A DNA stretch of 44,701 nucleotides, from contig JAJYTG010000007.1 of the NCBI GenBank assembly GCA_021793195.1, forward strand, positions 1 to 44,701. The letters run 5' to 3'. The stretch comes from Pseudomonadota bacterium. GTDB lineage: Bacteria > Pseudomonadota > Gammaproteobacteria > Xanthomonadales > Rhodanobacteraceae. The notes beneath the pieces are model-generated. The model ran no database searches and was not told where the DNA came from. It was given only the letters and a program-made list of their open reading frames with translations. The translations under genes were made by a program, and so were the position numbers. This document shows, piece by piece, positions 530-31,438 of this stretch (position 1 is the first letter of the stretch; the number at the start of each line of letters is the position of its first letter).

Positions 530-3307
530 TCAGGCAGTCTTATTCACGATCTCGACATACCCGATCAACTCCGCCGAATAACTGCCATCACCGTTCGCGG
601 CCCCCTTGTGCTTCAGCTCCCGCTGCAAGGTCGGCTCGACGGCTTGGGCGAACAGCTTGCTTCGCTGCTCGGGCCGGAACATCGGCGTGGTGGTCGGGGC
701 TTGCAGGTACTGATCGCACAGACGTTCGACGGTCGGGACGCGCGTGCCGTCCTGCTTGACGGCGATGGGCTGTACCACTACGCGGCGCTCGCCGTTACCG
801 ACTGACGCCTCGACCATCCACAGCGACAACAGCACCGGCTCGTCCACGTCGCCCGACACCGCGATGCCGATGTCCTCCGGCGGCACGCTGCGCCAACGCC
901 CCAACTCCTCTTGCACCAGCGGGTGATCCAAGCCCATCAGTTGCAGCGCATCCTGATTCATCGCCGCTTCGCGGCTCAAGGTGAAGCGGGCGCGGCGCGT
1001 GCCCTCGGCGGTGACGAGGTCGTAGGTCGCATCGTCCACCTTGACCAGCTTCTGCTGGCGATCCGCGACCGCCGCCGAGAGGAAGCGCACCAGCCGATCC
1101 AGACTGGAGGACACGTCCGAGAAGGGCTTGTAGTCGTCGAGGCTGAAGCCATCGAGGTCTTGGAACAGATCGAACACCACCTGCCGCGCCTCGCGCGAGT
1201 TCGACAACGCCGCTTCCAGTTCCACCTGCGTGCGCTTCAGCTCCGGGTCCGACAAGGCTTCCTGATACAGGCGGTCGTAGTTCAAGCGTTCGGACAACTG
1301 GCCAAGAATCTGTGAGCGCAGGTCTTCGGCCACGTTGCCTTGTTCATCCACCTTGCCCACCGTGCGCGCGATCTCGGTCAGCTTCTCGTCGAGCAGCAGA
1401 AAGATGCGACCTTCGATGGTGTCCGACAGCACAAGGTTGTAGACCTGCGCGGTGTGGGCCTGGCCGTAGCGGTGGATGCGTCCGATGCGCTGCTCCATGT
1501 CCATCGGATTCCACGGCAGGTCGAAATTGAACAGGATGCGCGCGAACTGCAGGTTGATGCCCTCGCGCCCGGCCGCCGTACAGACCAGCACACGCGGGCC
1601 ATCCTTCAGGCGGAAGCGCCGTTCCGCCGCCACCTTCGCGCCGTGGTCGCCGCCGCGCAGCACCACCACGCCCTGGCCGGGGAAGGTCTGCTCGATCTCT
1701 CGGGCGATCATGTCCACCGTGCCGAGGTAGGTGGCAAAGATCACGATCTTCTCGTTCGAGTTCTGCCGCCACAGCGTGCCCAAACCATCGAGCAGCTTCT
1801 GCATCTTGGTCTCGCGCTCCGCAGGGAACACGCGCAGCAGGTCGCCGATGCGCAAGCGCTCCTCGGGCAGATGCAGGTTTACCACCGCCGACGCGGCTTC
1901 CTCGGCGTGCGAGGACGAGTATTCGCTGGCGTAAGGGTCGGAGGCCATCTCCAGCGCCTCTTCGTCCAGCTTCTTGACCAGCCGGTACTTCAGATCGGCC
2001 AGCACGCGATCCACCTCGCTGCGCCCGACGCTGTCGCGCGACAGGTTGAACTCCTGGTGGATCAGCTCGCGCGCCTCCTCGGTCAGGCGCTCGCGGCCTT
2101 CGATGTCCAGTTCCTTGTCGTGCAGAAACGCCTCGTGCAGCGTCAGCATCAGCAAGCGGCGTTTCATCGTTCGCCGCACAGCGGCGAAGCTCGACGCAGC
2201 AATCTTCTGGAAGATGGCCATCAAGAAGCCGAGGGCACGCCCCTGGCCGCCCTGGCGACGCGCAAGGTCGAAGCCATCCTCCAGGTACTCGCGCAGCTTC
2301 TCGTAGAAGAGGCGCTCCTCCGGGCCCATCAGGAAGGACTCGGTATGCACCCAGCGTCGTGCAAACAACGGCGAGCCATCTGGCTGACAGGCGTCCGCCT
2401 TCGTGCGACGGAACATCACCGTGTTCAGGCGGTGCCGGTGTTCCAGCATTTCCTCGGGGCTGCCGAATAGCGTTGGGTTCAGCAGTTGCGCCAGCATCCA
2501 GAACTGAAAGTGATTGCCCTGGTGCGGCGTGGCCGAGAGCAGCATCAAGTCGCGCGAATGGTCTTTCAGCGCCTCAGCCAGCTTGTAGTTCTCGGTCTTC
2601 CTGACCTTGCCGCCGTTGCGGTATGCGGTGAGGTGATGCGCTTCGTCGAACACCACCAGATCCCAACGCGGCGCATCCAGCAGGCGCTTGATGCGCGCCG
2701 GGCGCTTCAGGGTGTCGATGCTGGCGATCAGTCGGTCGTGCTTGGCGAAGGCGTTGGTTTTGCGGTCGGTGATGTCGCCCTCTGAGCCGAACACCTCGAA
2801 GTCGAGGTTGAACACTTCGTTCAGCTCGCGGTGCCAGTTGTTCACCAGACCCGCAGGCACCACCATCAGCGCCCGGGTCAGTTCGCCCCGGCTGGCCAGC
2901 TCCCGAAGAATGAGTGCCGTCTCGATGGTCTTGCCCAGCCCGACCTCGTCGGCGATGAGGTAGCGCCGGGGCGATGCGGTGGCGATGCGGTGCGTCAGCA
3001 CCACCTGATGGGGCAGCAGGTCGATCCTGGCTGAGGTCAGCGCCGACGCGCTTTCCATCACCGGCAGTGCGTGCGCCTCGTAGGAGAGCCACGCCTTGCG
3101 TGCGCGGTCGGCATTGCCGTCGACCGCACGCAGGATGCGCTCGGTGCGGGAGAGCTGGCGGCGAACCGAGCCAACCGGCACACGGCGCTCACCAACGCCG
3201 AAGAACGCGCGCAGGTAGCCGTCGCGCGCCGGATCAAGAACGACGCCCTGGCCGAATTCGTGATGAGTGATCCGTTCGCCGGGTTGGAGCTGAGTCTCTA
3301 CTTCCAC
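530..3307 (-). CDS. SNF2-family helicase/translocase of defence island (DrmD/BrxH-like)
   Basis: This 925-residue protein starts at GTG with GAGG seven bases upstream. It is a superfamily 2 SNF2-type DNA translocase, a motor that moves on duplex DNA using ATP. Visible motifs are DEVGLGKT (120-127, Walker A), DEAH (221-224, Walker B), LLSATPHQG (about 256-264, motif III) and RIGRIHRYGQ (near 610, motif VI). A long C-terminal region follows that I cannot assign. DISARM (DrmD) and BREX (BrxHII) systems carry helicases of this superfamily. It is the last gene of the overlapping operon and starts 9 bases after the stop of the 166-residue gene. A DNA-surveillance role alongside the methyltransferase is inferred. 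Confidence 0.88.
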   Translation of the reverse strand: MEVETQLQPGERITHHEFGQGVVLDPARDGYLRAFFGVGERRVPVGSVRRQLSRTERILRAVDGNADRARKAWLSYEAHALPVMESASALTSARIDLLPHQVVLTHRIATASPRRYLIADEVGLGKTIETALILRELASRGELTRALMVVPAGLVNNWHRELNEVFNLDFEVFGSEGDITDRKTNAFAKHDRLIASIDTLKRPARIKRLLDAPRWDLVVFDEAHHLTAYRNGGKVRKTENYKLAEALKDHSRDLMLLSATPHQGNHFQFWMLAQLLNPTLFGSPEEMLEHRHRLNTVMFRRTKADACQPDGSPLFARRWVHTESFLMGPEERLFYEKLREYLEDGFDLARRQGGQGRALGFLMAIFQKIAASSFAAVRRTMKRRLLMLTLHEAFLHDKELDIEGRERLTEEARELIHQEFNLSRDSVGRSEVDRVLADLKYRLVKKLDEEALEMASDPYASEYSSSHAEEAASAVVNLHLPEERLRIGDLLRVFPAERETKMQKLLDGLGTLWRQNSNEKIVIFATYLGTVDMIAREIEQTFPGQGVVVLRGGDHGAKVAAERRFRLKDGPRVLVCTAAGREGINLQFARILFNFDLPWNPMDMEQRIGRIHRYGQAHTAQVYNLVLSDTIEGRIFLLLDEKLTEIARTVGKVDEQGNVAEDLRSQILGQLSERLNYDRLYQEALSDPELKRTQVELEAALSNSREARQVVFDLFQDLDGFSLDDYKPFSDVSSSLDRLVRFLSAAVADRQQKLVKVDDATYDLVTAEGTRRARFTLSREAAMNQDALQLMGLDHPLVQEELGRWRSVPPEDIGIAVSGDVDEPVLLSLWMVEASVGNGERRVVVQPIAVKQDGTRVPTVERLCDQYLQAPTTTPMFRPEQRSKLFAQAVEPTLQRELKHKGAANGDGSYSAELIGYVEIVNKTA

Positions 3308-3316
3308 GCTCCGACC

Positions 3317-3817
3317 TCAGGTGATCCGCAAATGGAACAGGCCAGCAGGCTTGCTGCCTTCGCGGAGCAGGATCTCCTGCGGGTATTCGTTGGCCTCGCC
3401 CCACAGAATGCGGCCGAACGCGATCAGGCGTTCGCTATGCGGCGCAGCGCAGCGCCACTCAACCGAGTCGGTGGCGGGATGAAACTTGATCCGTCCGAGG
3501 CCTGATGGCAGCCAAAAGATCAAGGACGCTTCACCCTCGTAGTAGGACTGAAACGACAGGATCGCATCCTTGACCCCATCGCCCAGCCACGTCTCGGCGT
3601 CCTCGGGCGTCAGCAGATCCAGGCCGCCTTCCAGCCCGGCAACGACGAGTGTGTTGTTGCCATTGCTCGGCAGGTCGTCGGGCCAATGGCCCGACGCCTG
3701 CAGGAATTGGCGCAGGCTCCAGACCTCGCTGGCCGCGCACACCTGATTGCGTGCCTCTTCGTCCCAAACCCAGCTGGTGCCGCGCCGCTGCCACACCGTA
3801 TCGAGCAGTTGCTTCAT
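3317..3817 (-). CDS. Uncharacterised 166-residue protein of defence operon
   Basis: I do not recognise this family. The protein is soluble, without signal peptide or membrane segments, and fairly rich in Trp (about ten residues), Glu and Asp. The central part (about 85-125) has alternating hydrophobic residues around SYYEGEASLIFW and LPSGLGRIKF, which suggests a beta-rich fold. Its ATG overlaps the stop of the methyltransferase gene as ATGA, and the SNF2 helicase starts 9 bases after its end, so it is probably translationally coupled to both. That position suggests an adaptor or specificity subunit between methylase and helicase. This is inference from context only. Confidence 0.75.
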   Translation of the reverse strand: MKQLLDTVWQRRGTSWVWDEEARNQVCAASEVWSLRQFLQASGHWPDDLPSNGNNTLVVAGLEGGLDLLTPEDAETWLGDGVKDAILSFQSYYEGEASLIFWLPSGLGRIKFHPATDSVEWRCAAPHSERLIAFGRILWGEANEYPQEILLREGSKPAGLFHLRIT

Positions 3818-6800
3818 AGCTCGTACTCCTCAAACAGCGTGCCCTGCGTCGGCTTGACCGCCTGAGTCGCCGCCCAGCCGTTGTAGATCGAGACCGCACG
3901 CGAGGCCGCATTGCGACTGGCCTGATCGGGGCCGTTCTTGTGCAGCCATTCCAGCAAAGGCTTGAGCGCCACGTGGGGCTTGAAGTTTTCGTTCTTCAGC
4001 GTGTCGGAAGCGTTGATACCGCTGCCATCGAAGCACGCACCAATAAGCACCAGCGCCTGATCCAAATCGGACGTCAATCTGCGCTTGTGCTTGCCAGACC
4101 AGTCGCGGGCAAAATCCAGCGGGTTCACCCGCGTCACGACCTTGCTTTTCTCCGAGCACCAGCCACGTTGCTCAAACTCGTCGGGCGTGGTGATCGAGCC
4201 CTTCAAGAACTTCTGCAGCTGGTCACGCTTCATTTCGGTGACATTGCCGAAAGTGCGCAGGAATTGACGGGTCATCGGCTCGGCATTGACCGGCGGCGGT
4301 TCTTTGCCCTTGTCCGCGTCCTCGTCGATGAGCTGGTTGATACCGACCAACGCTTCTTTGACGGAGATTGCGCGCCCCTCGTCTACGAAGACCTTGCCGT
4401 AGTGGCGCGAGAAGTATTCCAGCGCCTTGCCACGCCGGATGACCTGAATGTCCGCGGCAGGCAGGCCTTCCTTGGCGTGGTTCTCCAGCATTCCTTGCAA
4501 TTGCCGCACGTCGGCCATGACTTCACGACGCATCCGGCCCCAGCTGACGGGCTTGGGTTCTTCGGTGCGCTTACGGCAAACGTGGATGATGTCGTACTCG
4601 ATGGTCTTGGAGCCGAATTCGCCTTCGCCCTTGGTCTCGTCGGAGCGAATCGGGTACGTCGCTTCGAGGTAGTACCCCGCATCGAAAAGCGATTCCAACA
4701 CGGCTACCCATGGCTCGTCCTCGCTGTGGTGGAAGGTGAACGCAAGGATGCCGCCTGGCTTGAGTATTCGGTGCGTCTCGCGCCAGCACTGGGTGAGCAG
4801 TCGCTGGTAGAAACCATCCGGATCTTCCGGCTCTCGGGCGCGGTTGGCCACGGCCTCCAGCGATTTGGGCGTGTATTCGGAGCCGAAGATCGCTGGGTAT
4901 TTGTTTTTAAGCGCCAGGCGCAGCCAGACGTAGAAGAAATCGGACAGCTCCGAGTAGTGCAGCAGGCCACCGAATGGAGGGTCGGTGATGACCAAATCGA
5001 GGCTGCCGGTTTCAAGCTGCGCAAGATCGGTAGACGAGCCCTGATACACGGCCACATCCAGCACCGGATCACCGGGGAAGACCTTTTCGCTTTTGCCGCT
5101 CAGTTGGTTAGCTAGCGCGGGGTCTCGGCGCTTCAGCGCCTCAATACTCAACGAGTCCCACGGCTGAGTTGCCCATTCTCGGCCTTCGATGATTCCCTCG
5201 ACACAAGAAGCCCAGTTACCGCGGCCCAGCAAAGGAAACACGCAGTTCTCGACGACATTGTTTTTCGGGTGATAGTTGTTATTGCTTAGATGGGGAGCAA
5301 GGCAGTCTCTACTGATGTCCCAGAAGCAGAACATGTTCTGGTTGCGCAAGTACTGCTGATAGGCACCAAGAACATACTCCCGCACCTGCCAGTCGTATGT
5401 GCCAACCTCTACTACTGCCTTGAGCAATTGGGCTTGCACCAGCAATTGGCGATGATTAAACATCGTCCACCAGTGCGTGAAGCCGTGGTTCGGAACGCCG
5501 CCTTGCAGGTGATGGGTCATGAAGCCGTAGGGAAGCTCCGAGCGAGGCCAGTAATCCTTTAGGTCGGCATCCTTGCGCGCCGCCCATTCCGCCAACGCCG
5601 CATCGTGTTGTTGCGCGTGTGCTGTGTTGAAGGCGGCAAAGAAGCGACCGCTGTAAGGCTTGCCAGCTGCATCGCGCTTGGGCGCGTAGCCCTGAACGGC
5701 GTAAGCAGCCATCGGCCCGGTCTTGCCTGTGGCCTTGATGGTGGTCAGGACATCCTGCACCGTGCCGCAGGCCGAACAAGCGTAGTGTGACTTCTTCGGT
5801 ACGGTGCCTTTCTCGGGCGCGAAGGTGACGCCCGTTTCCGGATCAGCCACTTCATCCGGCAGCGTGCCGCGCACTTCCAGCAAGCGAATATTTGCAGCGC
5901 GTGCCGCATCCCAACGTGTGGTCGCGGCCACATCGTCTTGTGCCGAGCCACCGTAGGTCTGTCCATTCGCGTCCTGCTTTGGAGCACCAGCCAGCCATTG
6001 CGGATGTACAAGTAGGCTCAATTCCACCTTCTTGTTTTTGCCCTTGCCGAGTTTGACTATGGCAGTGTGGCCGCAGTGAGGGCAGACGACGCCTTTCTTG
6101 CGATCCAGTACGGAGAACGGGTATTCATCCGTCGCGACGTGCAGGGGCGCATCAGGGGCCATGCGCGCAGCCTCTTCCTCGACGTGAAAATCATCGCCGC
6201 ATTTGCTGCAAGTGTGCTCCCAGTGTTTCACGCTGATGGTCTTCAGCGCCATCACCGGGCTGGTCATGATCGGCGTCTGGTGTCCGCAGCCCGTCACCTG
6301 ACAGGGACCGTGCTTGGCCCAGAAGGTGTAGATGACCTCCGGACCTTCGTAGCGGTAGTCTTTGCGCTCGTCGCGCGGAATAGACAGCGGGTCGAAGTCA
6401 GCAGGCATCACGCGCTTGGTCGGCACGTGCGTCCATTTGCCTTTCTCGCCATTGGGGCCGTCGCAGTAGTAGTACGGCATGATCTGCGGCTTGACCTCGG
6501 CCTCGATTTCGGCGAGCAGGCGCTTCACTTCCTCCAGATCGACATTGGCAAGCTCCTGCTTGACCACGAACCACGCGACTGGATTCAGGTCGTTGCCGAT
6601 CATCTGCATTCCGAGACGCGAGCCCTCGACCAGCGTCGTGCCACCGCCCATGAAGATGTCGGCCACCTTCAGGTGCTTGAACGCGCCTTTCTTCTGGTGG
6701 TTGGCGTAGTAGTTGTCCCACACCAGCTTGGCCGCGTGCGACTTGTCCTCGGGGGCCTTGGTGGCCGCTGCGATCAACATCGAACGGAACACGCTGGAGC

Positions 6801-7017
6801 GACGCCGCGCCCACCATTTCGACATTTGGTAAATCGGCTTACCCGCGTTGCCTTCGATGATCGCCACCTGATTGACCGGCAGGATCGGGAAATCGACCTC
6901 CAGGCAAGTCTTCGGTCGGTTCGGGTCGTTGAAGTCGACGGTTTCCATTGCGACCGTCTTGCCTGCGCCGACTGCCTTGGCGACTTCTTGCGCCGTCTGT
7001 TCTTTTTTGGTTGCCAT
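3814..7017 (-). CDS. DUF1156-type adenine-specific DNA methyltransferase with Zn ribbons
   Basis: This 1067-residue protein starts at the ATG at 7017. The open frame extends to 7119, but that extension would overlap the upstream gene. The N-terminus has the DUF1156 signature (VDFPILPVNQ at 41-50; KPIYQMSKWWARRR at 60-73). A SAM-binding loop FMGGGTT is at 122-128 and the catalytic motif TDPPF at 678-682. The amino-methyltransferase fold is therefore split by about 550 residues, which carry Zn-ribbon pairs (C239/C244, C270/C273, C312/C315, C413/C416). In this family the product is expected to be N6-methyladenine or N4-methylcytosine, giving self-recognition for the defence system. It starts 11 bases after pglZ ends and overlaps the next gene as ATGA. 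Confidence 0.9.
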   Translation of the reverse strand: MATKKEQTAQEVAKAVGAGKTVAMETVDFNDPNRPKTCLEVDFPILPVNQVAIIEGNAGKPIYQMSKWWARRRSSVFRSMLIAAATKAPEDKSHAAKLVWDNYYANHQKKGAFKHLKVADIFMGGGTTLVEGSRLGMQMIGNDLNPVAWFVVKQELANVDLEEVKRLLAEIEAEVKPQIMPYYYCDGPNGEKGKWTHVPTKRVMPADFDPLSIPRDERKDYRYEGPEVIYTFWAKHGPCQVTGCGHQTPIMTSPVMALKTISVKHWEHTCSKCGDDFHVEEEAARMAPDAPLHVATDEYPFSVLDRKKGVVCPHCGHTAIVKLGKGKNKKVELSLLVHPQWLAGAPKQDANGQTYGGSAQDDVAATTRWDAARAANIRLLEVRGTLPDEVADPETGVTFAPEKGTVPKKSHYACSACGTVQDVLTTIKATGKTGPMAAYAVQGYAPKRDAAGKPYSGRFFAAFNTAHAQQHDAALAEWAARKDADLKDYWPRSELPYGFMTHHLQGGVPNHGFTHWWTMFNHRQLLVQAQLLKAVVEVGTYDWQVREYVLGAYQQYLRNQNMFCFWDISRDCLAPHLSNNNYHPKNNVVENCVFPLLGRGNWASCVEGIIEGREWATQPWDSLSIEALKRRDPALANQLSGKSEKVFPGDPVLDVAVYQGSSTDLAQLETGSLDLVITDPPFGGLLHYSELSDFFYVWLRLALKNKYPAIFGSEYTPKSLEAVANRAREPEDPDGFYQRLLTQCWRETHRILKPGGILAFTFHHSEDEPWVAVLESLFDAGYYLEATYPIRSDETKGEGEFGSKTIEYDIIHVCRKRTEEPKPVSWGRMRREVMADVRQLQGMLENHAKEGLPAADIQVIRRGKALEYFSRHYGKVFVDEGRAISVKEALVGINQLIDEDADKGKEPPPVNAEPMTRQFLRTFGNVTEMKRDQLQKFLKGSITTPDEFEQRGWCSEKSKVVTRVNPLDFARDWSGKHKRRLTSDLDQALVLIGACFDGSGINASDTLKNENFKPHVALKPLLEWLHKNGPDQASRNAASRAVSIYNGWAATQAVKPTQGTLFEEYEL

Positions 7018-7028
7018 GCAGCGGGTCC

Positions 7029-8018
7029 TTATTTCGTGAGCTCGACGAAGGGCGACAGCACCTCGAGCAGTGAGAGGCCGCCGTGCGTCAACGTCGGGTA
7101 GCCGCCTTGGCTCTTCCACTTCCAGCGGCCAACGGCCAGAAGGTGAGCGCCGTGCGGGCTGTTGATCTGTAGTGCCACGGGCGGCACAAACGGGCCGGTC
7201 TCACCGGTACCCTTGGCGCTGCGCCCGCTGGCGAAGGTTTTCTTGAGGAACTGGCCAACCTCGCCATCCGCGTCAGGGAAGTAGCCTGTTGCTGCGTAGC
7301 CGTGGTCGGATGTGATGACCAGACGCCGCCCGGTGGCCAAGCTCTCGACGAAAGACCAGAAGTCGTCGCTGCTGAGTTGATCGGCGGCGTCGCGGGTCAG
7401 CGTGTCGAGGCCTTGGCCAGCGCCTGATCCGTCGTGAACCTTGCTGTCGGGCCAGTGGTGCCAGAACACCCAGTTCGGCGAGCCGTTGATCAGGCTCTCG
7501 CAATCCTTCCACGGCATATCGACACACTCGGTGTGCGTCGGTTGCAGCTTGTGGGCAAGACCGCCGCCGTTGTTCTGAAGCTGGCTGCGACTGCCGAAGC
7601 CCAACGCCTGCGCGAATTGGTTGGTTTCACCGGGCAGTTCTGAAGCGTTGGCAGACACCTCGTGCAGCGTGAAACCGCGCTCTTTGGCACCTTGCAACAG
7701 CCAAGGCAGTTCACGCAGGGATAGGCCATCGAGCACCAGCACCGCCTTGGCGCTGTAGGGCTCTGTCCACCAGCGAGCCAGTCGATCCGAGGTGCGCTCG
7801 ACGGTGTCGCCGAAGGCTTGCCACAAGTCCCAGCCGGTGGAGGACAGGAAGTGGTCAAGAGTGCCGATTTCGCGGTCGCGCTTGATGACCTCGCTGGGCG
7901 CGTTGCCTGCAGCCAGCGGCTTGGACGCGATCTCGACGGCGTTGTTGATGATGACGCGCCACGCGTCCTCGGCAGAGCCTTTAGTCAGGCTGTTCAATAC
8001 CCCGACGTCGAGTGCCAT
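7029..8018 (-). CDS. PglZ-domain protein (alkaline-phosphatase fold), short stand-alone form
   Basis: This is a 329-residue protein. The ATG at 8018 overlaps the upstream stop (TGATG); a GTG one codon earlier is the alternative start. PglZ proteins share the alkaline-phosphatase fold and are core components of Pgl and BREX phage defence. Visible motifs are VLVLDGLS (93-100, metal-binding Asp), VITSDHG (234-240, Asp and His metal ligands) and THGGLSLLEV (311-320). Family members in BREX are usually much longer; here little more than the catalytic domain is present, with about 90 residues before it. It sits between the DUF499 ATPase and the methyltransferase in a tightly coupled operon. Its biochemical role in defence is not settled. 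Confidence 0.9.
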   Translation of the reverse strand: MALDVGVLNSLTKGSAEDAWRVIINNAVEIASKPLAAGNAPSEVIKRDREIGTLDHFLSSTGWDLWQAFGDTVERTSDRLARWWTEPYSAKAVLVLDGLSLRELPWLLQGAKERGFTLHEVSANASELPGETNQFAQALGFGSRSQLQNNGGGLAHKLQPTHTECVDMPWKDCESLINGSPNWVFWHHWPDSKVHDGSGAGQGLDTLTRDAADQLSSDDFWSFVESLATGRRLVITSDHGYAATGYFPDADGEVGQFLKKTFASGRSAKGTGETGPFVPPVALQINSPHGAHLLAVGRWKWKSQGGYPTLTHGGLSLLEVLSPFVELTK

Positions 8019-10762
8019 CACTTGTCCTCTTTCTCAAGGCTGAGCTCAAAGGTCATACCGTCAGGCAGCTTCTTGAGCAGTTCCTTAAGTTGCGCCCCTG
8101 TCGCTGCCGACACCCTGATCGAGACTTCGGCGACGGGGGTTGCCGGGCCAATGCCCCAACCCTCGAGCTTGCCGATCAGATTCAAGGGAGAGGTCGCAGG
8201 GTTGCTCAGCGGAATGCGGGGCTTGCCACCAGTGCTGGAGCCACCGCCGAAGATTCCGCCGCCCGGCGGCGGCGTGCCACCTCCCGGTGTCGTTTCACCG
8301 CCCGGTGGGGGCGGCGGTGGCGCTGTGCCGCCACCCCAAAGGCCGCCGCCTTCGCCGCCGCCAGTTGGCGGCTGATGCGCGGGGGGCGTTGTGCCACCCG
8401 TGGTCGGCACCGCCGAGGGTTCCATCAGGAACACTTCATCGAGCTGGCGGCCGGTGTACGACAGCTTCGGGCGCAGGCGTTTCCAGGCGGAATCTTCATC
8501 CTCGCCCGGCTGGGTCTGCAGGTACTCAAGGCCGCGCAAGTTGATGGCGATCTTGCCCCGCGCGCACAGCCGCAGGATGCGTTCCTTCATTGCGGTTTCG
8601 CCAAGCCAAGGGATGCAGTCTTGGCCAGCAGGGCGAGGCTCTTGCAGCTCGCGCAGCAGCTTGCCAACGGCCGAGTTGTCTGCCGCAGCTTCGAGCACGA
8701 GGTCTTCAAAATCCTCGGGCACGAACAGGTCGTTGATCAGCGCCTCCTCGATCCCTTCGGGGATCTGAGCACCTTGCTTTTTCAGGCTCTCGACGCTGAA
8801 TACGCACTGATTCGGATCGGCGAAATTCCAGCGATGCAGCACTGCGAAACGGTCGAAGCGCTTTTTCAGGATGTCGCGCAGCGCACCCTGGTACTCGGTG
8901 TGCAGCTTCTTGTACTCGGGGTTCTGGCCGCTCCATTCCTGCGCCTTCATCTCAGCACGCGCGAGGATCAGCAGGTCGCGATCCTGGAAGGCATTGGTGG
9001 AGCCGGATCGCGGCAGCAGGAAGCGGATGGTGTTGCGGCGCTTCTGCAGATGATCTTTGATCCAGCGGCCCAGGCGCTGGTCGATGTTGTCCGGTTCCTC
9101 TGGCAGCACCAGAACGGGCAGGCGGTCGTCCCAGCGCTCCGGTTGCTCGGCTTCATCCAGACTGACCCAAGGATCGGTCTGCCAAGCCTTCGGTAGCGCG
9201 ATCACACGGAAGGTCTTGGCGACCTCATCGGTGCCACCGATCACGTAGCGAACCTGCTTGGCAAGCTGGGCTTGGTCGGAGCCGTCGGTGAACAGCTTGT
9301 CGTTGCGAGCACAAGCCATCAGCTTGGCGCGAGGGTTCTCTTCTTCCTTGAAGACCAGTCGGGGGCCGTCTTGGTGGATGTTGAAGCTGTTCTCGACGAT
9401 GGTCGCCAGCTCTACCTGGAACGCGTTGTCATCGACGGCTTTGGTGCGCGTGATGTCCACCTGCAGCGTTGCCGGTTCCGCTCCAGCCAAGTTGCCTACA
9501 GCAATTGATCGCAGCCACAAAGCGCCCACGATCTCCTGGAGGTGCGGGGCAAGGTTGGCGTGGTCGGACACCGCCTCGGTGACCGAAATGATGTTCTGTT
9601 GGGCCTTCGCGCGCAGGGTGCGGTGGTGCTCGTTGGAGACGGAGTCGAGCAGCGCGCCGATGCCCGAAGCATCGTCATCAAGACGGAAGTCCGCAGCCGT
9701 GAGCACCGGTGCCACCTCACCACGACTCTTGTAGAGATTGGCCAGGATGCGAATCATGTCGCGCGTTTCCTGCGCGTCGGTCGCAATCAGTACCTGCTCT
9801 TCAAGCAGGCGCAGCAGGTGCGGGGCAAACGGCCAGGAGACCAAAAACTCCTTGCGCTTGCGCTCGTGCTCAGCGGTGGGCACCTCCATCAAGCGCAAGC
9901 TCTCGGCCACGTGAGATTCAATGAGCGAGGCGATCTGGGGCTTGGTGATCTGCAGCCGGTTGGTAAACAGACGGTGTAGCAGCATCCGGCGTCGATCCTG
10001 CTGTACTCGCTCAGGGTTGCCGCCCGCCATGAAGTCGATGGCGACCGGATTGACGCGATGCACTTGTTGATAGGCGTCGCTTCCACCGTTGCGAACCGAA
10101 ATCACGAGCACCAGCAATTCCGGATGCTCCTTGGCGATCTCGGACAGGATCTGGATGAAGTTGAACGCCCAGTTCTTCCACGGGTACTGCTTGGTGTTGG
10201 TCAGGCCGTCGTACCAAGTCTGGAATTCGTCCAGCAGCAACATCGTCGGCGTGTGCTGCAACATCTCGAGGATCAGCTTGTCAGACGGGATGTCGGTTTT
10301 GGCCGCTCCCATTCCCTCCCATTTGCCCTTGATGTAAGTGCCGCGGGGATGGCGCTCGAACAGCAAGTCCCATAGAAACTTGTAGCGCTGCCGGTGAAGG
10401 CTCTCACCGATCACCGTCATTCCGCTGCGCAGCCCGATCTTGCTGATCTGCGGATCGCTCAAGGTGGTGGCCCAGGAGTTCAGCCACGCACCCGTCGAGG
10501 TCGCATCGTTGACTGCGTGGTACAGCGCGGCCATCAAGTGAGACTTACCGAGGCCCCGCTCGCCGATCACCACGACCGGACGCCCTTGGTTCGGGCCGAC
10601 CGCCTCGATCCCTTTCAGCAGATCGTGGGTCGGATACGTGATCTCCAAGAACTCCTGGGCTGCGATCTGAGTCGCGCCGGTGTTCGTGTCGTTGGAGAGC
10701 TCAATGGCTGTCCCTTTGAGGCGTTTGCCCCGGAATTCTTCTCGTAGAGTCAGTCCAAGCAT
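8018..10762 (-). CDS. DUF499-type P-loop ATPase of defence operon
   Basis: This 914-residue protein resembles the large AAA-like ATPases of the DUF499 family, found beside DUF1156 methylases and functionally comparable to BrxC/PglY. Walker A is GERGLGKSH (67-75) and Walker B is LLLDEF (175-180). The region from about 788 to 855 is a linker of almost pure Gly, Pro and Thr with runs of Pro. A compact charged C-terminal domain of about 60 residues ends in EKEDK. The linker suggests a mobile C-terminal module. Its ATG overlaps the stop of the HTH gene as TAATG, and its stop overlaps pglZ, so one polycistronic message with coupled translation is likely. Confidence 0.87.
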   Translation of the reverse strand: MLGLTLREEFRGKRLKGTAIELSNDTNTGATQIAAQEFLEITYPTHDLLKGIEAVGPNQGRPVVVIGERGLGKSHLMAALYHAVNDATSTGAWLNSWATTLSDPQISKIGLRSGMTVIGESLHRQRYKFLWDLLFERHPRGTYIKGKWEGMGAAKTDIPSDKLILEMLQHTPTMLLLDEFQTWYDGLTNTKQYPWKNWAFNFIQILSEIAKEHPELLVLVISVRNGGSDAYQQVHRVNPVAIDFMAGGNPERVQQDRRRMLLHRLFTNRLQITKPQIASLIESHVAESLRLMEVPTAEHERKRKEFLVSWPFAPHLLRLLEEQVLIATDAQETRDMIRILANLYKSRGEVAPVLTAADFRLDDDASGIGALLDSVSNEHHRTLRAKAQQNIISVTEAVSDHANLAPHLQEIVGALWLRSIAVGNLAGAEPATLQVDITRTKAVDDNAFQVELATIVENSFNIHQDGPRLVFKEEENPRAKLMACARNDKLFTDGSDQAQLAKQVRYVIGGTDEVAKTFRVIALPKAWQTDPWVSLDEAEQPERWDDRLPVLVLPEEPDNIDQRLGRWIKDHLQKRRNTIRFLLPRSGSTNAFQDRDLLILARAEMKAQEWSGQNPEYKKLHTEYQGALRDILKKRFDRFAVLHRWNFADPNQCVFSVESLKKQGAQIPEGIEEALINDLFVPEDFEDLVLEAAADNSAVGKLLRELQEPRPAGQDCIPWLGETAMKERILRLCARGKIAINLRGLEYLQTQPGEDEDSAWKRLRPKLSYTGRQLDEVFLMEPSAVPTTGGTTPPAHQPPTGGGEGGGLWGGGTAPPPPPPGGETTPGGGTPPPGGGIFGGGSSTGGKPRIPLSNPATSPLNLIGKLEGWGIGPATPVAEVSIRVSAATGAQLKELLKKLPDGMTFELSLEKEDK

Positions 10763-11016
10763 TACTTTCGCTCCCCATTGTTCGGTTGGCCAGTGGCGTC
10801 GCCATCTTGTTCACGGCTGGTTTCGAGCCCCTCCATCGACTGCTGCTTGATCCAGCTATCGATGTCAGCCCGCGAGAACCGCCAGCTCCCTCCCACCTTG
10901 AAGGCAGGGATCTGCTTGGCGGCTGCCAACCTGTAGATCGTCCGCTCCGTGACCTTCAGGTAGTCGGCGACCTGCTTGATGGTGAGGATCTCGCCCTCGC
11001 TGGTACTTTTAGACAT
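10762..11016 (-). CDS. Excisionase-like helix-turn-helix protein (HTH_17 family)
   Basis: This is an 84-residue protein. Residues 10-60 form a winged HTH of the MerR/excisionase type (LTIKQVADYLKVTERTIYR, then a wing ending in WRFSRADIDSWI). Such proteins act as Xis-like directionality factors or as small transcription regulators. It is the first gene of the defence operon and overlaps the ATPase start by one base. It could autoregulate the operon or be a leftover of the element's excision machinery. No integrase gene is in the window, which favours the regulator role. The ribosome binding site is weak. Confidence 0.85.
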   Translation of the reverse strand: MSKSTSEGEILTIKQVADYLKVTERTIYRLAAAKQIPAFKVGGSWRFSRADIDSWIKQQSMEGLETSREQDGDATGQPNNGERK

Positions 11017-13170: not shown

Positions 13171-15525
13171 ATGACGCCGCCGCCCGCGTCCACGACGCCG
13201 TCCACCGATCGCACGCGCGGGCTGAGCATCGCCGAGGCGCAGCAGCGGCTCGCACAGTACGGACCCAACGCCATCGCCGACCAGACGCCATCGGTGTGGC
13301 GGCAGCTGGCAGCCCGGTTCTGGGCACCGGTACCGTGGATGCTGGAAGCGGTGATCGTGCTGCAGGTGCTGCTGCAACGGAGGCTGGAGGCACTGGTGAT
13401 CGCCTTGCTGCTGGTGTTCAACGCGGTAATGGCCTTCGTGCAGGAGCGGCGCGCCGTGGATGCACTGGCGCTGCTGCGCAAGCAGTTGCATGTGAACACG
13501 CGCGTGCTGCGCGACGGAACCTGGAGTCAGGTCCCGGCCGAGCAGGTGGTACCGGGCGACATCGTGCACCTGCGCGCGGGCGATCTGGTGCCGGCAGACC
13601 TCACCCTGTTCGACGGCGCCGTGGCACTGGATCAGGCGGCGCTCACCGGCGAGTCGCTGCCGGTCGACGCCGGCCCCGGCAAGCCGGCCTGGACCGGTGC
13701 GGTCGTGCGCCAGGGCGAGGCCAGCGGCGAGGTGACCGCCACCGGCAAGCACACCTTTTTCGGCCGCACGGCGGAACTGGTGCGCACGTCCAACGCGCCC
13801 AGCCACATGCAGCGCACCATCTTCGCCATCGTCAAACGGCTGGTGATCTTCGACGCCGCGCTGGTTGTGCTGGTGGTGGCCTACGCCCTGCTGCATCACC
13901 TGCCGTTGCTGGAAACGGCCGTGTTTGCGCTGATGCTGCTAGTGGCTTCGGTGCCGGTCGCGCTGCCGGCCACCTATACGCTGGCCACCGCGGTCAGCAG
14001 CCTCGAGCTCGCGCATCAGGGAGTGCTGGTCACGCGCCTGCCCGCGGTGGAAGAAGCCGCAGCGATGGACACCCTGGTGTCGGACAAGACCGGCACGCTC
14101 ACACAGAACACCCTGACTCTGGCCGGCACGACCGCGCTCGCAACGGGCAGCGACGAAGACGCCGTGCTGCGCGCAGCCGCCCTGGCCAGTGACGACGCCA
14201 CGCAGGACCCGCTCGATCTCGCCATCCTCGGCCCGGCGCGTGAACGCAAGCTGCTGCTCGAAGCGCCAACGCGCCGCGATTTTCACCCCTTCGATCCGGC
14301 TGTCCGCCGCAGCGAGGGCGTGTACAGCGTGGACGGACATGCATGGCACGCGCTCAAGGGCGCAGCCAACGTCATTGGCCCGCTGTGCAAGCTGACTGCT
14401 GATCGGCAAGCCGTTCTGGATGCCGCCGAACGCACGCTGGCCGCAAGCGGCGCGCGCGTGCTGGCGGTAGCGGCCGGCCCCGCCGATGCGTTGCGACTGT
14501 TGGGCGTGGTGAGCCTGTCGGATCCGCCGCGGCCCGACGCCGCCGCACTGATCGCCCAGCTCGCGCAACTCGGTGTGCGGGTGTGCATGGCCACCGGCGA
14601 CGCCCAGGAAACCGCGCGCGCCATCGGTGCCAAGCTGGGCCTGGGCACCCGTGTGTGCGAAGCGCAGGGCACGGGTGCGCAAAATCCTGAAGACTGCGAC
14701 CTCTACGCACGCGTGCTGCCCGAGGACAAGCACCACATCGTCGCCGCACTGCAAAAAGCCGGCCACGTCACCGGCATGACTGGTGACGGCGTCAATGACG
14801 CACCCGCGCTGCGTCAGGCCGAGCTGGGCATCGCCGTGGCCAGCGCCACCGATGTGGCCAAGGCGGCCGCCGGCGTGGTGCTCACCGATCCCGGCCTGGG
14901 CGGTGTGCTGACCGTGGTTCGTGCCGGGCGCGAGGTACACCGGCGCATGCTGACCTACACACTCAACAAGGTCCTTCGGGTGTTCGAGATCGTCATCTTC
15001 CTGACCTTGGGCCTGCTGCTGACGGGTCGCTTCCTGATCTCGCCGCTGCTGATCGTGCTGATGCTGTTCGCCAACGACTTCGCCACCATGAGCATCGCCA
15101 GTGACCGGGTGCGGCCCGCGGCGCGGCCGCAGCGCTGGCATGTACGCAAGTTGATCGGCGCGGCGATCGCGCTGGCCGCGCTGTCGCTCGCGTTCGCACT
15201 GGGCATGTACCTGGGCGCCACGGCCCTCGGCCTGAATGCCGCGCAGCTGCAGACGGTGGTGTTCCTGATCCTGGTGTTCAGCAACCAGGCCAGCCTGTAT
15301 GTCTTGCGCAATGACGACCGCCTGTGGCGGCTCGCACCTTCGCGCTGGATGGTGCTGGCCAGCCTCGGCGACCTCGCGCTGGTCAGCGTGCTGGCTGGTT
15401 TCGGACTGCTGATGGCCGCGCTGCCGTGGCTCGTGGTGCTGGCGCTGCTGGGCGCGAGCGTCGCCTTCGCGCTGCTGCTGGATCAGGCCAAGCGTTTCAT
15501 CTTCCCCCGCTTCGCCATCGTCTGA
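13171..15525 (+). CDS. P3A-type ATPase, plasma-membrane proton-efflux family
   Basis: This 784-residue P-type ATPase starts at an ATG preceded by GGAG. The order is: cytoplasmic N-terminus, two membrane helices, actuator domain with ALTGESLPV, helices with PVALPATYT (the PVALP of helix 4 typical of P3A proton pumps), phosphorylation site DKTGTLT with Asp305, nucleotide-binding domain, hinge TGDGVNDAP (537-545), and six C-terminal helices. It exports protons, or possibly another cation, at the cost of ATP and would help hold internal pH in acid or under low energy. The length fits archaeal and bacterial P3A pumps rather than the longer MgtA. An ANR-type promoter lies upstream. Confidence 0.88.
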   Translation: MTPPPASTTPSTDRTRGLSIAEAQQRLAQYGPNAIADQTPSVWRQLAARFWAPVPWMLEAVIVLQVLLQRRLEALVIALLLVFNAVMAFVQERRAVDALALLRKQLHVNTRVLRDGTWSQVPAEQVVPGDIVHLRAGDLVPADLTLFDGAVALDQAALTGESLPVDAGPGKPAWTGAVVRQGEASGEVTATGKHTFFGRTAELVRTSNAPSHMQRTIFAIVKRLVIFDAALVVLVVAYALLHHLPLLETAVFALMLLVASVPVALPATYTLATAVSSLELAHQGVLVTRLPAVEEAAAMDTLVSDKTGTLTQNTLTLAGTTALATGSDEDAVLRAAALASDDATQDPLDLAILGPARERKLLLEAPTRRDFHPFDPAVRRSEGVYSVDGHAWHALKGAANVIGPLCKLTADRQAVLDAAERTLAASGARVLAVAAGPADALRLLGVVSLSDPPRPDAAALIAQLAQLGVRVCMATGDAQETARAIGAKLGLGTRVCEAQGTGAQNPEDCDLYARVLPEDKHHIVAALQKAGHVTGMTGDGVNDAPALRQAELGIAVASATDVAKAAAGVVLTDPGLGGVLTVVRAGREVHRRMLTYTLNKVLRVFEIVIFLTLGLLLTGRFLISPLLIVLMLFANDFATMSIASDRVRPAARPQRWHVRKLIGAAIALAALSLAFALGMYLGATALGLNAAQLQTVVFLILVFSNQASLYVLRNDDRLWRLAPSRWMVLASLGDLALVSVLAGFGLLMAALPWLVVLALLGASVAFALLLDQAKRFIFPRFAIV

Positions 15526-15672: not shown

Positions 15673-16557
15673 ATGCCACCGATCGATCTCTGGAACCCCT
15701 CCCATCCGGGTGTGCTGGCGGCGCTGGTCACGGCCTGGCTGCTGGGCCTGGTGCATGGCGTGGTCCCGGACGAGCACACCTGGCCGATCACCTTCAGCTA
15801 TGCGATCGGCAGTCATTCCGGCCGCAAGGGCTTGCGCGCCGGACTGTTGTTCTCGCTGAGCTTCACCGTGCAGCGCGCGATCGCCAGCGAGCTGGCCTGG
15901 CTGGGCCTGTCGCACTGGATGCAGAACCGCTGGCTGGAGCAGGCGTTGTACGTACCCATCGGACTGCTGATGGCGGCGGGCGGCGTGCTGATGCTGCGCC
16001 AGCGCCGGGTGCTGCATCTGCATCTCATGGGCAGCTGTCACGAAAGCGAGCTGACCGAGCCCGTCGAGTCGGCGCGCTGGGCACGGATGACCGGCTGGAT
16101 GCCGGCCGTGCACGGCTTCGTCGCCGGCTGGGGGTTCGGTGCTTTCGCACTGATCCTGTACACCACGCTGGCCCCGGTCATGCCCGGGGCGGCATGGGGC
16201 TGGCTGCCGGGTGCCCTGTTCGGCTTCGGCACCCTGATCGTGCAGGCGCTGGCGGGCACCCTGTTCGGACGCCTCGCGGCCAGCCGCAAACTGTCACCGC
16301 AGGCGATCCATGATGTCGCGCTGCTGACCGCGGCGCGCACCTTGCTGTGGGGCGGACTGGCCTATGTGATCAGCGGCGTGCTGGCCACGCTGTTCCCGCA
16401 GCTGGCGCAGTGGCGTCTCGCCACCGGGCTGCGCGTGCATGGCTTGAGCTCGATCGACCTGCCGCTGCTGCTGGCGGTGGTATGCGTGGCCGGCGTCGGT
16501 CTCGGCACCTTCGCCATCGAAGTGCATCGGCATCGCCGGCGCGAAGCGGCTCGCTGA
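15673..16557 (+). CDS. Multi-pass membrane protein, nickel/cobalt transporter-like
   Basis: This 294-residue protein starts at an ATG preceded by GGAG and has about six or seven hydrophobic segments. Helix 1 carries GLVHGVVPDEHTWP (about 25-38). The spacing of His, Asp and His recalls the metal-binding HA(x)4DH signature of NiCoT/NicO permeases but is not identical. A short His/Cys-rich stretch (HLHLMGSCHESE, about 116-127) lies in a loop and could bind metal. The next gene encodes an Nramp-family protein, so a role in divalent-metal traffic fits the context. The substrate cannot be read from sequence. Alternative: a related UreH/TauE-like membrane protein. Confidence 0.55.
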   Translation: MPPIDLWNPSHPGVLAALVTAWLLGLVHGVVPDEHTWPITFSYAIGSHSGRKGLRAGLLFSLSFTVQRAIASELAWLGLSHWMQNRWLEQALYVPIGLLMAAGGVLMLRQRRVLHLHLMGSCHESELTEPVESARWARMTGWMPAVHGFVAGWGFGAFALILYTTLAPVMPGAAWGWLPGALFGFGTLIVQALAGTLFGRLAASRKLSPQAIHDVALLTAARTLLWGGLAYVISGVLATLFPQLAQWRLATGLRVHGLSSIDLPLLLAVVCVAGVGLGTFAIEVHRHRRREAAR

Positions 16558-16561
16558 CGCG

Positions 16562-16603
16562 GCGCATACGGCGTGGTCAAGCGCATACGCGAACGTGTAT
16601 CAT
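16562..16603 (+). promoter_or_regulatory. Possible operator/promoter of the Nramp gene
   Basis: The direct repeat GCGCATACG occurs at 16562-16570 and 16581-16589. An imperfect dyad ATACGC / GTGTAT and a possible -10 TATCAT (16598-16603) follow. It lies just upstream of the GTG start chosen for the Nramp gene. I do not recognise a known regulator site. Confidence 0.3.
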
Positions 16604-16634
16604 TTGCAGAACAACCGCCGCGCCCTGCCGCCCT

Positions 16635-17891
16635 GTGAGCATCCCCATCACCGATCGACCATCCACGCCGCGGACTACCTCGTCGTGGAGGCTCTTCCTC
16701 GCCGTGCTCGGCCCAGGGCTGGTGGTGATGCTCGCCGACACCGACGTCGGCAGCGTGCTGACCGCCGCGCAGAGCGGCGCGCAGTGGGGTTACCAGCTAC
16801 TCGGCCTGCAGCTGTTGCTGATTCCGGTCCTGTACGTGGTGCAGGAACTGACGGTGCGTCTGGGCATCTTCACCGGCAAGGGCCACGGTGAACTGATTCG
16901 TGAGACCTTCGGGCCGATCTGGGCTTGGGTCTCGGTCAGCGGCCTGGCCATCGCGACCATCGGCGCCCTGCTGACCGAGTTCTCAGGTGTCGCCGGGGTT
17001 GGCGAATTGTTCGGCGTGCCGCGTCTGTGGAGCCTTGCGCTGGCAGTCGGATTTCTGCTGATCGTGGTATGGAGCGGAAGCTACCGGCGCGTCGAACGCG
17101 TGGCCATCCTGCTGGGCCTGTTCGAGCTGGTCTTCATCGTCGTGGCGGTGCAGTCGCCGGTGCGCCTGCACGACGTGACCTCCGGGCTGCTGCACATGCC
17201 GCTGCACCGCGGCGATTTTGCCTATCTGGTCGCCGCCAACATCGGCGCCGTGATCATGCCGTGGATGGTGTTCTACCAGCAGTCCGCGGTGGCCGACAAA
17301 GGCCTGCAACCGCAGCAGTATGTCGCGGCACGCTGGGATACGGCGCTGGGCGCCGTGCTGACGCAGGTGGTGATGGCTGCCGTGCTGATGGTGACCGCGG
17401 CGACACTGTGGGCCGGACACCGCAGCCCGCCGCTGGACACCGTCGGCCAGGTCGCGCAGGCGCTGACCCCGGCGCTGGGCGAAACGCTGGGCCGCACCGT
17501 GTTCGGGATCGGATTGCTCGGTGCCGCGATGGTGGCCTCCATCGTGGTCAGCCTGGCCGCCGCCTGGGGTTTTGGCGAGGTCGCCGGCTATCGGCATTCG
17601 CTGGCGGACCATCCGCTCGAAGCGCCCTGGTTCTATGTCGTGTTCACGCTGGGCGTCGTCGGCGGCGCGCTGATCGTTGCGCTGGCTCCCGATTTGGTAG
17701 CGCTGTCGATCGGGGTCGAGGTGATGAACGCCCTGATGCTGCCGCTGGTGCTCGGGTTCCTGGTCGCGCTGGCGATCAAAGCGCTGCCCCCGGCGCATCG
17801 ATTGCGCGGCGCCTATCGCTGGGTGGTCATCGTCATTGTCGCGCTGACCACGACGCTGGGTGTGTTCGGCGCCTTCGGCAGCGTGCTCTGA
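16635..17891 (+). CDS. Nramp (SLC11)-family divalent metal transporter, atypical motif clade
   Basis: This is a 418-residue, about 11-helix transporter. The frame is open further upstream but only as high-GC read-through over the previous gene. GTG at 16635 is chosen because the conserved first helix begins shortly after it; no strong ribosome site is visible. Classical Nramp proteins have DPGN in helix 1 and MPH in helix 6. Here the positions read DTDVGS (35-40) and MPW (208-210), as in a distinct bacterial clade that may include magnesium-type (NRMT) transporters. It probably imports divalent cations by a LeuT-like fold. Mn2+ is not a safe assignment. Confidence 0.8.
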   Translation: MSIPITDRPSTPRTTSSWRLFLAVLGPGLVVMLADTDVGSVLTAAQSGAQWGYQLLGLQLLLIPVLYVVQELTVRLGIFTGKGHGELIRETFGPIWAWVSVSGLAIATIGALLTEFSGVAGVGELFGVPRLWSLALAVGFLLIVVWSGSYRRVERVAILLGLFELVFIVVAVQSPVRLHDVTSGLLHMPLHRGDFAYLVAANIGAVIMPWMVFYQQSAVADKGLQPQQYVAARWDTALGAVLTQVVMAAVLMVTAATLWAGHRSPPLDTVGQVAQALTPALGETLGRTVFGIGLLGAAMVASIVVSLAAAWGFGEVAGYRHSLADHPLEAPWFYVVFTLGVVGGALIVALAPDLVALSIGVEVMNALMLPLVLGFLVALAIKALPPAHRLRGAYRWVVIVIVALTTTLGVFGAFGSVL

Positions 17892-18017: not shown

Positions 18018-18094
18018 GCGCCCGTAGCTCAGTTGGATAGAGTACCAGGCTACGAACTTGGTGGTCGGGAGTTCGAATCTCTCCGGGCGCGCCA
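18018..18094 (+). tRNA. tRNA-Arg (anticodon ACG)
   Basis: Acceptor arms GCGCCCG (18018-18024) and CGGGCGC (18084-18090) pair, followed by discriminator G and an encoded CCA. The anticodon loop is CTACGAA and the T loop GTTCGAATC. It sits in the conserved csrA-tRNA-Ser-tRNA-Arg neighbourhood, here on the opposite strand to tRNA-Ser. Confidence 0.95.
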
Positions 18095-18106
18095 TCTCCG
18101 GACGAA

Positions 18107-18140
18107 GGCCAGCGAATGCACTCTCGCTGGCCTTTTTCTT
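18107..18140 (+). terminator. Rho-independent terminator of tRNA-Arg
   Basis: GGCCAGCGA (18107-18115) pairs with TCGCTGGCC (18124-18132) around an 8-base loop, followed by TTTTTCTTT. Confidence 0.88.
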
Positions 18141-18297
18141 TGGCCGTCCATTCGCCGTGCCGTTTGTCACGCGACTCGCGCGTGCCACGACGGCAGCGAA
18201 AGCATGCATGTCGAACACGATCGCAGGCGTGCTGCACGAAGCCGAATCGCCAGCGCAAAATGAAAAGCCGCAGCGCGATGGCTGCGGCTCTGAAAAC

Positions 18298-18390
18298 TGG
18301 CGGAGAGAGAGGGATTCGAACCCTCGATAGAGCTTTTGACCCTATACTCCCTTAGCAGGGGAGCCCCTTCGGCCTCTCGGGCATCTCTCC
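18298..18390 (-). tRNA. tRNA-Ser (anticodon GCT)
   Basis: On the minus strand GGAGAGA (18390-18384) pairs with TCTCTCC (18308-18302). The anticodon loop contains TGCTA, a long variable arm is present as expected of Ser, and CCA is encoded at 18300-18298. It lies about 70 bases downstream of csrA in the same direction. Confidence 0.95.
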
Positions 18391-18903: not shown

Positions 18904-21537
<2,634 letters not shown>

Positions 21538-21596
21538 GGACACGCACACGGACGGGTCGAGGGGCACGGCTCCGGGCGGGGGTCGCGAGTACGCGA

Positions 21597-23845: not shown

Positions 23846-23917
23846 GCGACACTCCGGAATCCGAAAGCCCCCCTTCTACTCCCGCGCCGTGCTCGCGCCA
23901 ACCCCGCCCTGCCGCTG

Positions 23918-31391: not shown

Positions 31392-31438
31392 GCGGATCTC
31401 CAGACAGACGCGCCGCGCAGCGCGCGGCGCCGGACCCT

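Follow-up and report, generated by a model that had tools for sequence, protein, structure and literature searches.

A probable Type-3 BREX-related operon in Rhodanobacteraceae

The contig JAJYTG010000007.1 of a Pseudomonadota bacterium (Rhodanobacteraceae; assembly GCA_021793195.1) harbors a compact six-gene operon that likely belongs to the Type-3 BREX-related (BR) defense systems, in which the PglZ protein would nick foreign DNA under the guard of host DNA modification and licensed by an ATPase and a helicase. The window, i.e., the whole analyzed stretch of 44,701 bases, represents one complete contig of a 1.78-Mb genome bin with an estimated completeness of 72.9%. The operon comprises six intact open reading frames without internal stops, all located on the minus strand at positions 530 to 11016:

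10762-11016, minus strand: helix-turn-helix (HTH) regulator of the excisionase/MAD1 type, 84 residues; optional first gene
8018-10762, minus strand: DUF499 AAA+ ATPase (BrxC-like), 914 residues
7029-8021, minus strand: standalone PglZ phosphodiesterase/nuclease domain, 330 residues
7018-7028: PglZ/methyltransferase junction, empty in the window; main insertion site among relatives
3814-7017, minus strand: HmaB/DUF1156-type N6-adenine DNA methyltransferase, 1067 residues
3317-3817, minus strand: small conserved protein, probably an iSTAND (inactive P-loop protein resembling BrxB/BrxF), 166 residues
3308-3316: 166-residue gene/helicase junction, empty in the window; HEC-01 site among relatives
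530-3307, minus strand: SNF2/RapA-type helicase, BrxHII-like, 925 residues; nuclease domain not recognised

The compact arrangement of six genes that the first-pass annotation had proposed was confirmed. The HTH stop and the DUF499 start overlap by one base, DUF499 and PglZ by four (one if PglZ begins at its ATG), and the methyltransferase and the 166-residue gene by four, and gaps of 11 and 9 bases separate PglZ from the methyltransferase and the 166-residue gene from the helicase, respectively. All core-gene junctions of the window copy are free of inserts. The open frame of the methyltransferase extends back to 7119, and the ATG at 7017 is preceded by TAAGGA; the longer frame is probably not the gene. 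The G+C content of the operon is 62%, compared with 68% elsewhere on the contig, which we count in favor of the assignment as a defense system of this class.

Type-3 BR systems have been defined by genome comparison in 569 taxa (Rakesh & Krishnan, NAR, January 2026, PMC12839542), and PMC13326643 (July 2026) also mentions it as a recognised subtype. According to the main text of PMC12839542, the set consists of a DUF499 ATPase, an N6-methyltransferase with a nested target-recognition region, an SNF2 helicase without nuclease, a standalone PglZ and an iSTAND protein. Apart from the unproven iSTAND, the composition of the operon fits this definition feature by feature: the Walker motifs of the DUF499 AAA+ ATPase are intact, the N6-methyltransferase contains a nested target-recognition region with zinc fingers, the BrxHII-like SNF2 helicase lacks a recognised fused nuclease (an absence established by family scans), the standalone PglZ exhibits the metal-coordinating active-site residues as judged by fold and invariant positions, and a small extra core gene is present. 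The two four-cysteine zinc fingers of the methyltransferase are the trait of a smaller subset of the published class, to which the operon would belong; differences are the MAD1-type HTH gene that leads the window operon and the 166-residue protein, whose identity as the iSTAND is tentative. Judged from its genes, the operon very probably protects cells against viruses. The first-pass reading is thus partly supported: it described a real system well, and its statement that the exact set is not well characterised has been overtaken by the description of Type-3 BR, a subtype that the gene set equals, in contrast to BREX proper and DISARM. The operon is a compact member of a defense class whose description is, to our knowledge, purely computational.

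Conservation among relatives

Relatives were collected by one scan with the window PglZ, which yielded 93 matches of which the best 80 were kept (66-100% identical). Loci collected with PglZ are near relatives rather than a random sample of Type-3 BR systems, and copies without PglZ cannot appear among them. The record titles of the best 80 name 75 Pseudomonadota, two Acidobacteriota and one representative each of three other phyla, and many are metagenome bins. The start of the methyltransferase was seen in 75 of the 80 loci, and the 166-residue gene, at the same operon position, together with the helicase in 69. The order DUF499, PglZ, methyltransferase, 166-residue gene and helicase is retained in all 69 relatives with four readable junctions; for the junction counts the methyltransferase was trimmed of its first 34 frame residues, which overlap PglZ. 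Ten of the 11 loci without the last two genes reach a contig end soon after, and the remaining one (L077) turns to unrelated genes within PglZ. The junction between DUF499 and PglZ measures 60 nucleotides or less in 78 of 79 loci.

Because the same genes recur in the same order in 69 readable of 80 loci, the operon is not a product of chance. The co-occurrence across genomes that had been suggested as a check was therefore found, and the view of PglZ, DUF499, methylase and SNF2 motor as one unit holds. The proposed set of six stands for the five core genes, which are constant, but not for the HTH gene, which is optional: of the 73 relatives that could be assessed, 37 have a similar gene immediately before DUF499.

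The five-gene order also extends to more distant copies, whose PglZ is about 51% identical in the genome G242 and 44% in Escherichia coli. A survey of 321 genomes of the window's class retrieved matches to the 166-residue protein in three, namely in the window's own genome and in G242, both times within the operon, and in G079, where the profile match is a chance hit to an ABC-transporter frame. PglZ matches were obtained in four of these genomes, i.e., the own one, G242, G196, where it lies within an operon that runs up to the contig end, and G200 (weak). One of the collected loci (L002) bears the title Akkermansiaceae MAG16, a Verrucomicrobiota bin; its PglZ protein is 100% identical to that of the window, its operon DNA 86% over 7.9 kb, and it represents either a transfer or a misbinned contig.

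Core proteins of the operon

The best PADLOC match of the methyltransferase is HmaB (E 3e-36), followed by PglXI (E 1e-25). The NCBIfam model DUF1156_antiphage matches at E 1e-23 with 83.5 bits, far below its cut-off of 1000, and the Pfam model DUF1156 does not match the window protein; the counterpart is annotated as DUF1156 in three of the four plasmid records examined. The motif DPPF at residue 679 is present in 65 of 65 aligned rows, and the cysteines 239, 244, 270, 273, 312, 315, 414 and 417, which constitute two four-cysteine groups, are retained in 61 to 65 of them. Between conserved flanks of the same alignment, residues 250 to 675 are variable, and this pattern identifies the stretch as the predicted nested target-recognition region. 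Across 47 complete operons its pairwise identity tracks the other genes loosely (Spearman 0.24-0.40) and its own methyltransferase core more closely (0.71), as expected if the target specificity is exchanged, in a comparison that is correlational.

The DUF499 ATPase shows a modest but real Pfam match (E 3e-8) and possesses an intact Walker A motif (GERGLGKS, from residue 67) and Walker B motif (MLLLDE, 174-179). It is highly variable at about residues 800 to 850, a Gly/Pro-rich stretch in the window, and the C-terminus thereafter is conserved. The helicase contains the Pfam families SNF2 and Helicase_C, all matches being of helicase type, and the motifs GLGKT (123-127), DEAH (221-224) and QRIGR (606). 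Its best PADLOC match is BrxHI/BrxHII (E 2e-101 over residues 94-877), then HmaA (E 1e-91), and the family scans with Pfam and PADLOC recognised no nuclease domain. The HTH protein matches HTH_17 (Pfam, E 1e-19) and, with 84.4 bits and thus above the cut-off of 80, the NCBIfam model MAD1.

PglZ has no Pfam family match, and its assignment is carried by the predicted structure and by conserved residues. The model, with a middling mean predicted local distance difference test (pLDDT) score of 73.4, superimposes on PorX with Z 16.0 (274 residues) and on the Acinetobacter BREX PglZ (9zn5_B) with Z 11.6, with the following rows at 8.5, so that the predicted fold is clearly that of PorX and BREX PglZ. 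The residues D98, S101, D192, H196, D239, H240 and H313 are invariant in all 79 full-length rows including the window, and the candidate catalytic set (D, S, DxxxH, DH, H) is complete. The motif order suggests that S101 and H313 are the equivalents of T272 and H500 in PorX and of T538 and H741 in the PglZ of Escherichia fergusonii. A profile search of the PglZ alignment against the sequences of the PDB retrieved designed or chance-like proteins only.

The 166-residue protein lacks a family match in Pfam, PADLOC and NCBIfam, and its sequence contains no Walker A motif. Its model is confident (pLDDT 91.8), and the 50 structural-match rows all read as P-loop-type NTPases; BrxB is not among these VIA-align rows, which shows nothing by itself. 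Foldseek found no match at E 0.001 or better, a profile search against PDB sequences returned designed or chance-like proteins only, and hhalign detected nothing between the alignment and DUF499. The iSTAND protein is characterised in the main text of PMC12839542 by eroded Walker motifs, a small sheet after strand 4 and the lack of a helical bundle, and a separate gene is reported there for 466 of 569 Type-3 BR taxa. The 166-residue protein is compatible with this description and is probably the iSTAND.

Proposed mode of action

The gene set and order, the catalytic residues, the PglZ fold, the variability pattern and the plasmid occurrence can be read from sequences and models, and from there we infer the following steps. 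The N6-methyltransferase would mark a short motif in the host DNA via its large variable target-recognition region. On unmarked incoming DNA, the DUF499 AAA+ ATPase might build a complex, with the 166-residue protein as a probable BrxB-like partner, which the RapA/BrxHII-type SNF2 helicase would move or remodel. PglZ, the only core-gene product recognised as a nuclease-type enzyme, would then nick the invader, whose replication would stop, and the small HTH protein, where present, presumably regulates transcription. Taken together with the membership in Type-3 BR, we consider this modification-guarded nicking of foreign DNA the likely explanation of the operon. The nicking step finds its parallel in PMC12205998, according to which a BREX PglZ nicks DNA in a metal-dependent manner; in the E. 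fergusonii protein, the T538A exchange ends the nuclease activity, and with H741A the activity changes to nicking.

Several observations weigh against this explanation or parts of it. By sequence, PglZ is recognised at E 0.0055 only (PADLOC); the Salmonella BREX PglZ (9nv3_C) reaches no more than Z 7.7, amid unrelated rows; four stretches of the model have a pLDDT below 50 and hold D192, H196 and H313; and the nucleophile is Ser, as opposed to Thr in PorX and BREX PglZ. The structural matches of the 166-residue protein are weak, with Z at most 4.8, a level that may mean a mere common arrangement, hhalign gave a probability of 0.3% for BrxF (shallow profiles) and hence no profile link, and the iSTAND label is tentative. 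The Gly/Pro-rich variable stretch of DUF499 is not obviously the “hypervariable RRM” mentioned in the main text of PMC12839542. A Type I BREX system with the nuclease-dead PglZ T538A lost about three logs and kept much of its defense, and BREX PglZ itself tells apart neither modified DNA nor BREX sites (text of PMC12205998). Discrimination must therefore come from elsewhere, and nicking by PglZ may account for only part of the effector function. Finally, no experimental study of Type-3 BR systems was found in the open-licence literature, PMC12839542 included. Since no core gene other than pglZ encodes a recognised nuclease-type enzyme, the operon offers a simple setting for asking whether PglZ alone can restrict phages.

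The most serious competitor assumes that PglZ mainly acts, as in PorX, as a (cyclic) nucleotide phosphodiesterase, and that, rather than cutting DNA, the system works by nucleotide signaling or depletion. The top structural match is indeed PorX, one structure of which is complexed with pGpG, cyclic as well as linear oligonucleotides are also substrates of BREX PglZ according to the text of PMC12205998, and the nucleophile is Ser in place of Thr. We nevertheless regard it as unlikely, given that neither a nucleotide cyclase nor a second-messenger sensor was recognised among the six genes and that the window copy lacks another nuclease able to serve as effector.

Relationship to known defense systems

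The claim that the operon is neither canonical BREX nor DISARM proved correct. Canonical BREX was rejected on account of the ATPase, which is DUF499, and of BrxC and BrxA, neither of which had a match among the six genes in PADLOC, Pfam and NCBIfam. The set of Type-3 BREX consists of brxF, brxC, pglXI, brxHII, pglZ and brxA. The operon shares with it a BrxHII-type SNF2 helicase, an N6-methyltransferase, PglZ and an AAA+ ATPase, and might be a reduced Type-3 BREX system, minimal or degenerate, from which BrxA and BrxF were lost, a scenario for which the helicase match to BrxHI/BrxHII and the methyltransferase match to PglXI speak, as does the statement in the main text of PMC12839542 that Type-3 BREX is the closest relative of BR systems. 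However, no BrxC model matches the DUF499 ATPase at E 0.01 or better, the methyltransferase is closer to HmaB than to PglXI, and the PglZ has 330 residues compared with 866-879 in BREX PglZ structures. No member of the BrxF family NF033453 was detected in the genome bin (72.9% complete), and the 166-residue protein lacks a detectable BrxF link. Moreover, the same set occurs in many genomes and is therefore not a one-off loss from Type-3 BREX, which makes this derivation very improbable.

Still less probable is an Hma (Type-1 BR) system with a PglZ-like gene as a mere neighbor: the trio of helicase, methylase and DUF499 ATPase is shared, with matches to HmaA and HmaB at E 1e-91 and 3e-36, but Hma lacks PglZ and its helicase is fused to a C-terminal nuclease in 79% of taxa (PMC12839542, main text), whereas here DUF499 barely matches HmaC (E 0.0023), no nuclease domain is recognised in the helicase, and PglZ and the 166-residue gene lie inside the operon in 69 of 69 readable, PglZ-collected relatives, with the tight DUF499/PglZ junction noted above.

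DISARM and MADS were rejected as well. The SNF2 helicase resembles DrmD with 298.7 bits, below the NCBIfam cut-off of 610, and DrmA is matched only helicase-to-helicase; DrmB and DrmC have no match among the six genes. The full MADS set comprises eight mad genes, and the PADLOC models for MADS encountered here were mad1, 2, 3 and 8. The leading HTH protein passes the MAD1 cut-off, the only one above threshold, the methyltransferase and the ATPase are weakly similar to mad2 (E 4e-8) and mad8 (E 0.0018), respectively, and no further MAD component was recognised among the six genes.

Inserted defense modules in relatives

The feature of this clade that most deserves to be followed is missing from the window copy: many relatives harbor additional genes within the operon. 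Inserts were defined as at least 150 nucleotides between core genes, and all counts refer to the inside of the operon. PADLOC scans covered one representative per module, or two in the case of HEC-01, and the others were identified by tblastn similarity, with 47-100% identity for IetAS, SIR2-HerA and HEC-01. The prefix HEC in PADLOC names we take to stand for Hma-embedded candidates. At least one insert is present in 35 of the 69 fully readable relatives and two or more in eight, distributed over the junctions as follows:

DUF499/PglZ, 1 of 79: HEPN-MNT
PglZ/methyltransferase, 30 of 75: IetAS 10; SIR2-HerA 6 plus a remnant in L066; MazF/PemK-type toxin 4; family of about 310 residues 3; GmrSD 1; other 5
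methyltransferase/166-residue gene, 6 of 69: Schlafen and ParA-like 3 (two with more small genes); HEPN-MNT 1; DUF5615/PIN 1; not assigned 1
166-residue gene/helicase, 10 of 69: HEC-01AB 9; Schlafen-TPR 1 (L048)

Inside the operon, the recognised kinds of module are tied to their junctions. IetAS (10 of 10) and SIR2-HerA (7 of 7, one remnant) reside exclusively between PglZ and the methyltransferase, HEC-01 (9 of 9) always precedes the helicase, and all recognised insert genes are located on the operon strand. In the tree of DUF499 with 70 rows, IetAS occurs in nine rows and requires nine changes, SIR2-HerA in seven rows and requires seven, which is the maximum possible in both cases, and the tree neighbors L060/L059, L073/L067 and L068/L069 carry IetAS or SIR2-HerA, one or the other. 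This distribution, with its maximal change counts and differing neighbors, indicates that the modules come and go. The tree was inferred by a quick method with 29 of 67 inner branches starred; its states count L048 (Schlafen-TPR) as HEC and the remnant of L066 as SIR2-HerA, and the IetAS-bearing L017, whose DUF499 is cut by a contig end, is absent. Recombination within the operon could inflate the change counts, which do not distinguish between gain and loss.

Based on these patterns we tentatively propose, with somewhat less than even confidence, that the operons of this clade function as a chassis with fixed sockets, in which whole defense systems, otherwise independent, are exchanged on the same strand and might provide a second layer that fires when a phage inhibits the methylase/PglZ core. 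The sockets would be occupied by IetAS, SIR2-HerA, MazF/PemK-type toxins and GmrSD between PglZ and the methyltransferase, by HEC-01 before the helicase, and by Schlafen-ParA, HEPN-MNT or PIN before the 166-residue gene. Such a socket pattern bears on the assembly of layered immunity.

Defense genes embedded within defense systems are an established theme, which weighs against the novelty of the sockets. The same holds for the OLD-ABC, HEPN, Schlafen and GmrSD-type HNH nucleases that the main text of PMC12839542 catalogs in BREX and BR loci generally. That text describes Type-3 BR systems as lacking auxiliary or backup nucleases or keeping them in limited instances, in contrast to the near relatives investigated here, half of which carry inserts, and IetAS, subtilase and SIR2 are absent from it. 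A report of sockets was not found in the open-licence literature, with Data S4 of PMC12839542 and its list of neighborhood nucleases lying outside that search.

Among the loci with inserts are L003, L011, L029, L032, L045, L048, L055, L061, L063, L064 and L067-L076. The inserts of about 310 residues at the PglZ/methyltransferase junction are located at 11003-11926 in L031, 11005-11952 in L034 and 10993-11931 in L053; those of L053 and L034 are 48% and 24% identical to that of L031. The L031 protein has no match in Pfam and PADLOC, nor do those of L034 and L053 in Pfam, the only database scanned for these two, and a so far unnamed defense protein is a possible interpretation. Pfam and PADLOC likewise gave no match for the insert proteins of 270 and 94 residues in L072 and those of L025, L009 and L013.

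Occurrence on plasmids and in Escherichia coli

PglZ relatives were found in 39 of 72,556 plasmid records, 32 of them predicted to be conjugative and 28 from Klebsiella, whereas 50,697 phage records yielded no match. Four plasmid copies were examined. Those of Citrobacter (L102) and Klebsiella (L103) harbor SIR2-HerA between PglZ and the methyltransferase and are located near blaKPC-2 on conjugative plasmids. The DUF499 match of L102 starts at residue 214 and is hence devoid of Walker motifs, and the gene of L103 is annotated as similarly short; because of this truncation the two copies may not work. The plasmid copies of Ensifer and Aminobacter comprise the five core genes without inserts.

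The chromosome of E. coli EM22-18-53 contains a divergent six-gene copy including a MAD1-type HTH gene (L101, 3039-13474) close to Tn7-like genes (TnsD/TnsE-like), and four of its six genes are annotated as “hypothetical protein”. Over 69% of the query, the helicase gene is matched in 33 of 5,426 E. coli genomes, one of which was examined. Both E. coli and plasmids of enterobacteria thus provide natural copies.

Genomic surroundings

Because the window represents one whole contig, the known sequence beyond the helicase is limited to 529 bases. In the 39 relatives that have 1 kb or more of sequence there, no generally conserved gene follows the helicase. Four loci share a common gene that adjoins or overlaps the helicase stop (L008, 11497-12801; L046, 17464-18768; L072, 18848-20188; L038, 17500-18804); it encodes 434-446 residues in three of them and is split into two pieces in L038, and the proteins of L008, L072 and L038 (first piece) have no Pfam match. 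On the other side of the operon, between 11218 and 31466 of the window, five of ten scanned open reading frames matched Pfam at 1e-5, and two tRNAs are present:

13171-15525: P-type ATPase (Pfam)
16347-17891: Nramp (Pfam)
18018-18390: two tRNAs
18904-21567: alanyl-tRNA synthetase (Pfam)
23384-26518: MutS (Pfam)
29505-31466: Hsp90-type protein (Pfam)

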